Below, piece after piece: positions 47,479 through 52,933 of a stretch of DNA of 64,000 nucleotides; positions within the stretch are counted from its first letter, which is position 1, and each line of letters starts with the position of its first letter. The position numbers and the translations under genes were made by a program. Under the pieces are notes generated by a model. The model saw only the letters and a program-made list of their open reading frames with translations. It did no database searches and was not told the DNA's origin. Source of the stretch: Haloarcula sp. DT43 (GTDB taxonomy: Archaea; Halobacteriota; Halobacteria; Halobacteriales; Haloarculaceae); contig NZ_JAYMGZ010000002.1 in the NCBI RefSeq assembly GCF_037078405.1, forward strand, positions 310,001-374,000. Direction: 5' to 3'.

Positions 47479-50400
47479 ATGACAGCGGACGAGGACCGTA
47501 CCATCCTGCTCATCGGCAGCGGCCCGATAAAAATCGGCCAGGCGGCCGAGTTCGACTACTCCGGCGCACAGGCGTGTCGCGCCCTCCAGGAGGAGGGGGC
47601 CCGCGTCGTGCTCGTGAACTCGAACCCGGCGACGATTATGACCGACCCGGAGATGGCGGACAAGGTGTACCTCGAACCCATCAACACCGAAGCCATCTCG
47701 GAGATTATCCGGAAGGAGGACCCCGACGGGGTCATCGCCGGCCTGGGCGGCCAGACCGGTCTGAACGTCACGGCCGAACTCGCCGAAGAGGGCGTCCTCG
47801 ACGAATTCGACGTGGACGTGATGGGGACGCCGCTCGACACCATCTACGCGACGGAGGACCGCGACCTGTTCAAACAGCGGATGGAGGACATCGGCGAACC
47901 GGTGCCCCGCTCGACGACCATCACGCTCGACGAGGGCGAGTCGGTCACCGACCTGGACGAGGAATCGCTGGTCGACCGCGTCGAGGCCGCCGTCGACGAG
48001 GTCGGCGGGCTCCCCGTCATCGCACGCACGACGTACACGCTGGGCGGCTCCGGCTCCGGCGTCGTCGACGAGATGGACGAACTCATCGAACGCGTCCGCA
48101 AGGGTCTGCGCCTCTCGCGCAACAACGAGGTGCTCATCACCGAGTCCATCTCCGGCTGGGTCGAACTCGAATACGAGGTGATGCGCGACGCCGACGACTC
48201 CTGTATCATCATCTGCAACATGGAGAACATCGACCCGATGGGCATCCACACCGGGGAGTCGACCGTCGTCACGCCCTCGCAGGTCATCCCCGACGAGGGC
48301 CACCAGGAGATGCGCGACTCCGCGCTGAAGGTCATCCGCGACCTGGGCATCCAGGGCGGCTGTAACATCCAGTTCGCCTGGCACGACGACGGCACCCCCG
48401 GCGGCGAGTACCGCGTCGTCGAGGTCAACCCCCGCGTCTCCCGCTCCTCGGCGCTGGCCTCGAAGGCGACCGGCTACCCCATCGCCCGCGTCACCGCGAA
48501 GGTCGCGCTCGGCAAGCGCCTCCACGAAATCGAGAACGAGATTACCGGCGAGACGACGGCGGCGTTCGAGCCGGCCATCGACTACGTCGTGACGAAGGTG
48601 CCACGCTGGCCCATCGACAAGTTCCAGGACACCGAGTTCGAGCTCTCGACGGCGATGAAATCGACCGGCGAGGCGATGTCCATCGGGCGGACCTTCCCCG
48701 AGAGCCTGCTGAAGGCGCTCCGCTCCTCGGAGTACAACCCGGCCGCGGACTTCAACGACATCGACGACGCGGAGCTGGAGACGGAGTACCTCGAAAAGCC
48801 GACGCCGGACCGCCCGTACGCGATGTTCGAGGCGTTCTGCCGCGGCTACACCGTCGAGGAAGTCGTCGACATCACCGACATCAAGGCGTGGTACGTCGAG
48901 CGGTTCAAGGAGGTCGCCGACGCCGCCGAGGCCGCCCGCGAGGGCGACTACGAGACGGCCGCACAGGCCGGCTTCACCGACCAGGAGATAACCGCGCTGG
49001 CCGGCGGCGAGTTCAACGACACGCACGTCTCCTGGCTCCCGGCCGACCTCGACGGGGACGGCGGCGACGAGGCGGAAGTCGAGGCTGCGACGGACGGCTC
49101 CGGCGTCACGGTGGACTCCGTCGAGACCGACACCACCGACCGCGACTTCAAGCTCGTCGACACCTGCGCCGGCGAGTTCGAGGCGACGACGCCGTACTAC
49201 TACTCGACGCGCGACCCGATCTCGGGCATCGACCGCAACGAACTCCAGATAGACCCCGACCTGGAGAGCGTCGTCGTCGTCGGCGGCGGCCCCATCCGCA
49301 TCGGACAGGGCGTGGAGTTCGACTACTGTTCGGTCCACGCCGTCCGCGCGCTGGAGGAACTGGGCATCGACGCCCACGTCGTCAACAACAACCCCGAGAC
49401 GGTGTCGACCGACTACGACACCTCCGACGGCCTGTTCTTCGAGCCGGTCACCGCCGAGGAGGTCGCCGACGTCATCGAGGCGACCAACGCCGACGGCGTG
49501 ATGGTCCAGTTCGGCGGCCAGACCTCCGTCGACATCGGCCACCCGCTCGAACAGGAACTGCAGCGCCGCGACCTCGACTGTGAGATTATGGGCACGTCCG
49601 TCGACGCGATGGACCTCGCCGAGGACCGCGACCGCTTCAACAAGCTGATGGACGAACTCGGCATCGCACAGGCCGAGGGCGGCTCCGCGACCTCCAAGGA
49701 AGAGGCCCTCGACCTGGCCCACGACATCGGCTACCCCGTCCTCGTGCGCCCGAGCTACGTGCTCGGCGGCCGCGCGATGGACGTGGTGTACAACGACGAC
49801 GACCTCGAGACCTACATCGAGGAGGCCGTCCGCGTCTCGCCGGACAAGCCCATCCTCGTCGACGAGTTCCTCGCCGACGCCGTGGAACTGGACGTCGACG
49901 CCGTCGCCGACGAGGACGACATCCTCATCGGCGGCGTGATGGAACACGTCGAGACCGCCGGCGTCCACTCCGGTGACTCGGCCTGCATGATTCCGCCCCG
50001 CTCCCAGGAAATCAAGGCCGTGATGCCCCGCATCCGCGAGGTCGTCGAGGACATCGCCGACGCGCTCGACACGGTCGGCCTGCTGAACGTCCAGCTGGCG
50101 GTGCGTGACGGCGAGGTGTTCGTCCTCGAAGCGAACCCGCGCTCCTCGCGGACTGTGCCGTTCATCTCCAAGACCGCCGGCGTCCCAATCGCCAAAATCG
50201 CCGCCAAGGTGATGTCCGGCGCGTCGCTGTCCGACCTCGACGTCCAGGAGCAGATTCCCGAGCAGGTCTCTGTCAAGGAGGTCGTCCTGCCGTTCGACCG
50301 CCTGCCGGGCTCGGACCCGCGTCTCGGCCCGGAGATGAAGTCCACCGGCGAGGTCATGGGCACCGCCGGCTCCTTCGGCAAGGCCTACCAGAAGGCCCAG

Positions 50401-50730
50401 ATGGCCGTCGGCAAGCCGATTCCGCTCTCCGGTACGGCCATCGTCGACCTGCCCATCCTCGGCTTCGAGGAGCACTTCGACGTGCAGGACTTCGACGACT
50501 ACGAGGACACCGACGCCATCATCGAGGCCATCCAGAGCGGCGAGGTCGACCTCGTCGTCTCCCGTAACCGCGACGTGCTGGAGGCCTGCGTCGAGGAGAC
50601 CGTGACGTACTTCTCGACCCGCGAGAGCGCCGAGGCGGCGCTGGAGGCTATCAACTCCGCCGACCAGCCACTCGCCGTCCAGGCCATCGACGAACGGCCA
50701 AAGACCCAGCGCGAGTGGGGCAGCGAGTAA
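47479..50730 (+). CDS. carB: Carbamoyl-phosphate synthase large subunit
   Basis: This 1083-residue synthetase makes carbamoyl phosphate from bicarbonate, ATP and ammonia supplied by CarA, for arginine and pyrimidine synthesis. Two homologous ATP-grasp halves are seen: MTADEDRTILLIGSGPIKIG near the start and VVVVGGGPIRIGQGVEFDYC near residue 595. Both have ATP sites (for example VIARTTYTLGGSGSGVVDEM and VLVRPSYVLGGRAMDVVYND). The C-terminal allosteric domain runs from about 960. It is not in an operon with carA, which faces it 2.2 kb away. Both share an upstream element. Confidence 0.97.
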   Translation: MTADEDRTILLIGSGPIKIGQAAEFDYSGAQACRALQEEGARVVLVNSNPATIMTDPEMADKVYLEPINTEAISEIIRKEDPDGVIAGLGGQTGLNVTAELAEEGVLDEFDVDVMGTPLDTIYATEDRDLFKQRMEDIGEPVPRSTTITLDEGESVTDLDEESLVDRVEAAVDEVGGLPVIARTTYTLGGSGSGVVDEMDELIERVRKGLRLSRNNEVLITESISGWVELEYEVMRDADDSCIIICNMENIDPMGIHTGESTVVTPSQVIPDEGHQEMRDSALKVIRDLGIQGGCNIQFAWHDDGTPGGEYRVVEVNPRVSRSSALASKATGYPIARVTAKVALGKRLHEIENEITGETTAAFEPAIDYVVTKVPRWPIDKFQDTEFELSTAMKSTGEAMSIGRTFPESLLKALRSSEYNPAADFNDIDDAELETEYLEKPTPDRPYAMFEAFCRGYTVEEVVDITDIKAWYVERFKEVADAAEAAREGDYETAAQAGFTDQEITALAGGEFNDTHVSWLPADLDGDGGDEAEVEAATDGSGVTVDSVETDTTDRDFKLVDTCAGEFEATTPYYYSTRDPISGIDRNELQIDPDLESVVVVGGGPIRIGQGVEFDYCSVHAVRALEELGIDAHVVNNNPETVSTDYDTSDGLFFEPVTAEEVADVIEATNADGVMVQFGGQTSVDIGHPLEQELQRRDLDCEIMGTSVDAMDLAEDRDRFNKLMDELGIAQAEGGSATSKEEALDLAHDIGYPVLVRPSYVLGGRAMDVVYNDDDLETYIEEAVRVSPDKPILVDEFLADAVELDVDAVADEDDILIGGVMEHVETAGVHSGDSACMIPPRSQEIKAVMPRIREVVEDIADALDTVGLLNVQLAVRDGEVFVLEANPRSSRTVPFISKTAGVPIAKIAAKVMSGASLSDLDVQEQIPEQVSVKEVVLPFDRLPGSDPRLGPEMKSTGEVMGTAGSFGKAYQKAQMAVGKPIPLSGTAIVDLPILGFEEHFDVQDFDDYEDTDAIIEAIQSGEVDLVVSRNRDVLEACVEETVTYFSTRESAEAALEAINSADQPLAVQAIDERPKTQREWGSE

Positions 50731-50898
50731 CGCGAGGCGGTGTTCGAGAGCGGGTACACCACCACCGACGGCGGCACCGGGTTCGGTCTCGCCATCGTCA
50801 AGGAGATAGCGGCGGCCCACGACTGGTCCGTGTCGGTGACCGAGAGCGACGCCGGCGGCGCGCGGTTCGAGTTCACGGGCGTCGACCGGGGGTGCTGA
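50731..50898 (+). pseudogene. Histidine kinase ATPase-domain fragment fused to the carB stop
   Basis: Directly after the carB TAA, and in the same frame, 55 codons followed by TGA read [20 protein letters not shown] and on to [16 protein letters not shown] and ending [11 protein letters not shown]. This is the G2 box and last strands of a HATPase domain ([16 protein letters not shown]). No start, H-box or N-box is present, so it is a remnant of a deleted kinase gene joined at the end of carB. Confidence 0.85.
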
Positions 50899-51093
50899 GG
50901 CCCTCCCGTCTTCGGCTTACAAGTCCGGACCGTTCGGTCGGGAGAGTGCCGACTGAACGTAACTGGCTGCGTCTCGGTGTCCGTCTGTTTTCTTCTGGGA
51001 CAATAATGGCACGTTCGTAACACTCATTTCCAGGCGCTGTGGCACTACCTGTATGGATAGCGTTGAAACTGCTGTCGCCGCCTCGGGACCCCG

Positions 51094-51714
51094 ATGATAG
51101 AGGACATCACCCGACGGGCGGAGACAGTCGCGGAGATGGCTCCCAGTAGCTCGGTGACCACGGCGGTTCTCGCCGGGCACGCGAGCCGCTTCTCGGCACA
51201 CCCGCCGCTGAACGACCCGCCGCTGACGTACCTCGACGGCGCTGAGGCCCCGGCGTACCTCCTGACGAACGGGAAACGCGGCATCGGGCGCGGGACGAAA
51301 CGCAAGACCGAGTCCCCCGTCGGCGACCGCCGCACCGTCATCATGGTCACCGGCCGCCGGACGCTCTGTCTCATCGGGAAAGACGAGGACGACGAGGTCA
51401 TCGAGGTCCCCCACGAGTCGGTCGCCGACGTCACCACCAAGACCGGGTTTCGCGCACACCGGCTCGCGCTCCGGACGCCGCGGAAGATGTATCACTGCTG
51501 GGTCCACCGCAAGACCGACACCGAGACGCTCGAAGCGGCCGCCGAGTTCATCGAGAACCACCAGCAGGAGACGCCCGACGCAATCGACGGCGACGACACC
51601 GCCAACCGGGTGATGTACCGCGGCCGTCCCGTCGCGCCACAGGACACCCCGGAAGAGACGGACAGCGACCAGACCACGTACTACCGCGGCCAGCCAATCG
51701 ACGACGGCGACTGA
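51094..51714 (+). CDS. PH-like domain protein, unknown function
   Basis: This 206-residue soluble protein contains a beta-rich region TVIMVTGRRTLCLIGKDEDD, VIEVPHESVADVTTKTGFRA, like a bacterial PH domain (YokE type). An alpha helix follows, DTETLEAAAEFIENHQQETP, and two short YRG repeats (MYRGRPVA, YYRGQPID). No catalytic motif is present. It lies in the interrupted segment between carB and carA, but its GC content is normal. Function unknown. Confidence 0.75.
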   Translation: MIEDITRRAETVAEMAPSSSVTTAVLAGHASRFSAHPPLNDPPLTYLDGAEAPAYLLTNGKRGIGRGTKRKTESPVGDRRTVIMVTGRRTLCLIGKDEDDEVIEVPHESVADVTTKTGFRAHRLALRTPRKMYHCWVHRKTDTETLEAAAEFIENHQQETPDAIDGDDTANRVMYRGRPVAPQDTPEETDSDQTTYYRGQPIDDGD

Positions 51715-51874
51715 GTTACGCGGCGTACTGCGCTACTGCTGTTCCGAGAGCCGCGTTTCGCGTGCCCCCTCGCTTCGCTCGGACTCCCTCCTCACGGTTC
51801 GTCAGTTGTCGTGAATACGGTTTCTTTATTCGTTAGACTGGCTGAAAGCCTTGCTCAATACACTTGCAAGCCTT

Positions 51875-52390
51875 TCAGGACACCCCATTCTCGGTCCGCC
51901 CCTCCTCCTTGATGTCTTCCAATTCATCTGTGCTGAGGAATGCACTACGAACCGCTGGATCAAGCGATTCTTTTAGTTCAGAAGCGGTCGTCGTGGGGAG
52001 CCAGTAGTGCTGAAGAGACCCATCATAGCGAGCGGCGATACCGTAGCCATCAGTATCGACGAACAGCGCGTGATGGAGCCCAGGCGTGTACGCCGAAAGA
52101 ATGGCGTCAACGACATCTGGTGACGACGCAGCCTGCCCGTTGATGTGTCCGTCAGTAATCGTGAACCCTGCCTCACGGAGTGTTTCCAATGAACTGTCTT
52201 CTGCTCCTCCCGACTTCATCAGTGAAACCGTTCCCTGTATTCTGATTTCGTTCACTTGACGAGGACTGATCGCAAGCACCTGCCGAGTCAGCGAGCGAGC
52301 GACATCCTGGTACTCGTGTTCGGTCATTCGGGGACGGTAGAGGTAGTATTCAGTCTCGTCTGACGGCCCCGTCACGGATAGTTCGCTCAT
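51875..52390 (-). CDS. Orphan hypothetical protein in AT-richer segment
   Basis: This 171-residue protein starts MSELSVTGPSDETEYYLYRP and contains VARSLTRQVLAISPRQVNEI and HHALFVDTDGYGIAARYDGS. No family is recognised. Its codon third positions are clearly less GC-rich than those of the flanking car genes, which points to horizontal gain. An in-frame ATG 30 bp upstream is an alternative start. Function unknown. Confidence 0.65.
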   Translation of the reverse strand: MSELSVTGPSDETEYYLYRPRMTEHEYQDVARSLTRQVLAISPRQVNEIRIQGTVSLMKSGGAEDSSLETLREAGFTITDGHINGQAASSPDVVDAILSAYTPGLHHALFVDTDGYGIAARYDGSLQHYWLPTTTASELKESLDPAVRSAFLSTDELEDIKEEGRTENGVS

Positions 52391-52566
52391 TAGCTTCTCC
52401 TCGCCCGTACGTATCTCCACTCTATAACGTTACACCCACACTCTGTACTTACCGAAGTGATTCATCGCATTAAAGCCAGTTCTCACCGATTGATTTGTGG
52501 TGAAACAGCCGTTAGATGGGTGTGCGTATTCATCATCCCCAGTATTTTTGTAAGGATAGCCCATAT

Positions 52567-52713
52567 ATGTCTTTCAGCAGCATGTATTCCATTCTACAAA
52601 TTGGGCTTGAAGGGTCTAGAAGCCCGGTCGACTTCCTTTTGGCCGTGGTAATCTGGGTCGGTGTTTTCGTCGTCGTGCTTATTCTCGGCAAGTTAGTTAA
52701 TTCCCATATTTGA
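52567..52713 (+). CDS. Very small membrane protein, 48 residues
   Basis: This 48-residue protein starts MSFSSMYSILQIGLEGSRSP and has one membrane segment, FLLAVVIWVGVFVVVLILGK. It lies in the same AT-rich stretch as the orphan gene at 51875-52390. An upstream in-frame start at 52516 would add 17 residues. No family recognised; it may be a chance hydrophobic frame. Confidence 0.4.
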   Translation: MSFSSMYSILQIGLEGSRSPVDFLLAVVIWVGVFVVVLILGKLVNSHI

Positions 52714-52933
52714 AATGAATATTATTGACATCTGGTAAAGGTAGATTGGTAGATTCACCCTCTGTACTGACCAGAAGGCCCACGAATAGAACTGCCGTAT
52801 TCACAACCACTGTTATCACTCACCGTTCGGATATCTGGAGACCCCTCGCTACGCTTGGGCTCTCCCTGATCACGGCTCGCTATCGCTCGCCGTTCGCAAC
52901 AAAACGATGCCTCTCACTCCGTTCGAGTCCTCG

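Follow-up and report, generated by a model that had tools for sequence, protein, structure and literature searches.

Within the 64,000 nucleotides of the Haloarcula sp. DT43 genome analysed here (the window), the reading frame of carB continues past its TAA stop (50728-50730) for 55 codons, up to a second stop at 50896-50898. This raises the question of where those codons came from and whether they do anything. The gene itself (47479-50730, forward strand) is intact and encodes the 1083-residue large subunit of carbamoyl-phosphate synthase, the last 199 residues of which share 80-96% identity with their counterparts in 31/31 other Haloarcula genomes. We conclude with considerable confidence that the codons after the stop are the scar of a gene loss, in which an ancestral kinase located between carB and a 206-residue open reading frame (ORF) was removed by a single deletion of ~2.96 kb, leaving a remnant behind. 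A scar of this sort is ordinary and reflects a known kind of event. The locus provides a small, cleanly placed case of a haloarchaeon losing a sensor kinase, and its junction can be confined to roughly 12 bases. The loss indicates that at least one lineage can do without the kinase; what is known of CarB or of kinases is unchanged by the remnant. Among the titles and abstract openings listed by a literature search, none concerned this locus.

The codons after carB encode the end of a histidine kinase

An earlier note on this DNA, made from the sequence alone, proposed that the 55 in-frame codons encode the end of a HATPase domain, and both profile and homology searches bore this out. The Pfam HATPase_c profile matched residues 4-49 of the translated segment (E = 3.2e-8; 34.4 bits against a curated cut-off of 26.4). 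The match covers profile positions 57-106 of 111 only, corresponding to ~50 residues at 50740-50895 in the window, compared with positions 2-106 in the three related kinases that were scanned, such that the domain is incomplete. HATPase_c was the sole Pfam match in the segment, with no HisKA phospho-acceptor domain, which is found at residues 805-862 in the three scanned relatives. The kinase remnant thus occupies 50740-50898 on the forward strand and consists of the last ~52 codons of a kinase gene, encoding the second half of HATPase_c, plus the stop. Searching 60 related genomes for homologues, 58 of which gave matches, returned the C-termini of long Haloarcula kinases as the best matches beyond the window. 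Chance resemblance can be excluded because the top 13 of these outside matches, at 88-92% identity, are all kinase C-termini from the same genus.

Relatives carry the whole kinase at the same place

We located carB in all 32 Haloarcula genomes and compared the downstream DNA of the 31 others, although for G011 the comparison covered just ~1 kb 3′ of carB, where the contig ends. A past kinase gene beside carB had been suggested, together with a comparison of carB 3′ flanks as the way to find it, and this comparison recovered an intact orthologue: 13/31 other genomes have a kinase of ~1005 residues between carB and a homologue of the 206-residue ORF, on the same strand. These genomes include H. 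amylolytica (G006), H. vallismortis (G009), H. japonica (G028), H. argentinensis (G031) and H. sebkhae (G003). The kinase starts 107-111 bases past the carB stop in the 13 relatives, with the start in G012 and G006 positioned by homology comparison, as the start pattern was unmatched there. A AAATACTTATT stretch, which we take to be an archaeal promoter element, is present 25-36 bases upstream of the kinase start in 12/13 relatives, while G016 differs. In the 3/13 kinases scanned with Pfam, the architecture comprises a receiver, a GAF domain, several PAS domains, HisKA and HATPase_c.

The remnant shares 87-94% identity with the C-termini of the 13 carB-adjacent kinases. It resembles those of H. 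vallismortis, H. japonica, H. argentinensis and H. sebkhae in site, strand and the last ~50 residues, but ~950 of the ~1005 residues are gone, including every domain ahead of HATPase_c (receiver, GAF, PAS and HisKA) as well as the first half of HATPase_c itself. Downstream of all 13 kinases are homologues of the window's 206-residue ORF and of CarA. In the window, this ORF (51094-51714, forward strand) has weak Pfam matches to DUF7510 and bPH_3, both below cut-off, and its position after the kinase in the 13 relatives defines the right-hand end of the deletion; kinase-to-ORF spacer lengths were taken without G019 and G027, in which the start motif was not found. No donor kinase from elsewhere, as the earlier note had envisaged, is needed, since the remnant sits in its original place between carB and the 206-residue ORF. 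A donor within the same genome was also rejected based on identity, with the best listed of its own paralogues at 80%, whereas the kinases next to carB in other species reach 87-94%.

Probable loss of the kinase in the window's lineage

Phylogenies were calculated for carB (30 genomes, G002 and G007 left out), carB plus carA (28 genomes, also without G015 and G011, which have no carA in the stretch covered) and the 206-residue ORF (19 genomes). The window's genome grouped with the 13 kinase-bearing genomes in both carB trees (support 100/100), and H. salina (G004) fell just outside. The position of the window's genome beside the 13, rather than inside the group they form, received support of 93/90 with carB plus carA, while carB on its own did not resolve it. 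The ORF tree placed the window's genome with the same group (100/99), on its own branch (0.14) outside a clade of 12. Taken together, these trees make it most likely that the common ancestor of the 14 genomes had the kinase and that the window's lineage lost it.

An alternative history is that this lineage never had the kinase, and that recombination brought in the remnant and the 206-residue ORF together from a relative that has the kinase, one border of the import lying at the 3′ end of carB. The placement beside the kinase-bearing group is compatible with such an import, as is H. salina, which has carB and the ORF homologue without a kinase between them. However, the separate branch of the window's ORF indicates no sampled donor, and the import would still have to be joined non-homologously at this very point, which makes it less simple than one deletion; we therefore regard it as improbable.

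Under loss by deletion, the divergence of the remnant also bears on timing. It differs from the 13 copies by a mean of 15.2 synonymous and 5.5 non-synonymous changes, compared with 11.5 and 3.3 among the copies themselves, and dN/dS against the copies was 0.05-0.16 over 49 codons, with no clear relaxation. Because the differences are mainly at synonymous sites, most of the divergence would have arisen while the kinase was whole, which suggests that the deletion is fairly young, with the proviso that 49 codons are too few to tell a young deletion from weak constraint or a kept small frame.

About 3 kb present in relatives is missing from the window

Relative to the 13 kinase-bearing genomes, the window lacks 2960-2978 bases, with the largest figure coming from the public genome G006, where adapter sequence is counted in. 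Very probably, the deleted ~2.96 kb consisted of ~95% of the kinase gene plus the spacer separating it from carB, in which the promoter-like sequence lies. A deletion remnant should have an orthologue at the corresponding site in related genomes, as it does here, and its missing portion should not occur elsewhere in the genome; among the candidates scored, no such portion turned up. The full kinase gave no match at E 1e-100 in the window's genome (25 of 119 candidates scored), and its first 446 residues matched paralogues only (103/103 candidates scored), the best at 54% identity over 265 residues and 61% over a 139-residue receiver stretch. At the DNA level, the kinase matched the remnant at 88% over 144 bases, and no other match above 80 bases at ≥80% identity was found in the genome (40 of 165 candidates scored). 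Five further DNA matches, of 45-79 bases at 80-85%, were in other genes.

The window's genome assembly is 99.88% complete. It is very unlikely that the strain has the kinase and that the gene was dropped during assembly: the judgement rests on the assembled sequence, and the public genome G006 contains adapter sequence within the same kinase, but the junction is within an 868-kb contig and, among the candidates scored, none in the 19 contigs matched the remainder of the kinase as closely as an orthologue would.

The junction falls where carB and the kinase resemble each other

The suggestion that a deletion or recombination had ended exactly at the carB stop, with the join at the very next base, held as regards loss by deletion and was not supported as regards the endpoint. 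The junction zone spans 50729-50740 on the forward strand, and the join within it cannot be placed at an exact base because the carB end and the kinase are alike there. In the junction register, the two sides read GAGTAACGCG for carB and GA(A/G)(A/C)A(A/G)C(A/G)CGA for the kinase in the alignment of relatives, and it is due to this register that the remnant shares the carB frame. The T at 50728 belongs to carB, as the kinases have A or C in 13/13 cases, and the G at 50732 agrees with the carB flanks in 12/13 relatives and with the kinase in 1/13. At 50740-50741, G and T match the kinase of 13/13 relatives and the carB flanks of 4/13 and 3/13, respectively, and the window tracks the kinase sequence from 50740 onward. 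The CGCG after the window's carB stop is shared, at the corresponding place, by several kinase-bearing relatives. These positions put the join between about 50729 and 50740, with a point a few bases beyond the stop as the simplest reading, and the first three residues of the 55-codon segment (REA) may derive from the carB flank.

Agreement between the two sides was highest in G016 and G023, at 8/10 bases in the junction register, which is equalled by 0.16-0.19% of kinase registers, and was 5-7 of 10 bases in the other 11/13 relatives (equalled by 0.55-9.7%); these fractions are guides only, as the 10-base span was picked after viewing the alignment. In this comparison, relatives stand in for the parental sequence. 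We infer that microhomology-mediated deletion, in a single event, is the likeliest route. The ancestor would have had the ~1005-residue sensor kinase (receiver-GAF-PAS-HisKA-HATPase) flanked by carB and the 206-residue ORF, as in the 13 relatives, and would have lost the spacer together with its promoter-like sequence, the start of the kinase and every codon except the last ~50. Joining would have taken place where the carB stop region and the kinase DNA for E-(K/Q)-(H/R)-E match briefly and imperfectly, which would keep the carB stop and set the remnant in the carB frame, a product expected from microhomology-mediated end joining or replication slippage. Selection on CarB would presumably favour deletions that spare its stop.

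Microhomology-mediated end joining has been described in Haloferax volcanii (PMC7776575; PMC7521656), and the deletions there resemble that proposed for the window, in that a stretch is lost and the two ends share a short sequence where they meet. Those in PMC7521656 followed induced CRISPR self-targeting, whereas the deletion in the window is deduced by comparison with relatives and has an imperfect match.

The remnant is most likely inert

With no HisKA, only the second half of HATPase_c and nothing left of the sequence preceding the kinase start, the remnant is most likely inert and would at most be transcribed along with carB. Read-through of the carB stop, which had been suggested to append the 55 residues to CarB, found no support: the C-termini of all 32 Haloarcula CarB proteins lie no more than two residues apart, and among these ends no C-terminal extension occurs in any other CarB. 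A scan of 50600-51200 for promoters and terminators, covering bacterial-type signals only, found none.

We also considered whether the 52-codon frame (GTG at 50740) has been kept and is used, either as a small protein or fused to the end of CarB by read-through. The frame is open, continues that of carB and differs from the 13 kinase copies mostly at synonymous positions, but 49 codons provide little power, HisKA and the first half of HATPase_c are missing, the spacer that bears AAATACTTATT in 12/13 relatives is gone, and no other Haloarcula CarB has such an extension; retention is highly improbable.

Other features of the region

The ~1.2 kb between the 206-residue ORF and carA in the window (51715-52933) contains a 181-residue frame on the reverse strand (51875-52420) and a 65-residue frame (52516-52713). 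Neither matched the carB flanks of the 31 other Haloarcula genomes, and the 181-residue frame had no Pfam match.

Among the kinase-bearing relatives, the kinase frame of H. amylolytica (G006) is broken by what we take to be transposase-adapter sequence followed by N, an artefact of assembly that annotation could mistake for a disrupted gene. A nonsense mutation in this kinase, as a second independent loss, was rejected because the internal stop is within the adapter sequence next to N. The kinase of G005 has a TAG three codons ahead of the usual end, which we treated as trivial. In G023, the orientation of carA with respect to carB is reversed relative to the other 12 kinase-bearing genomes, which suggests a local inversion.
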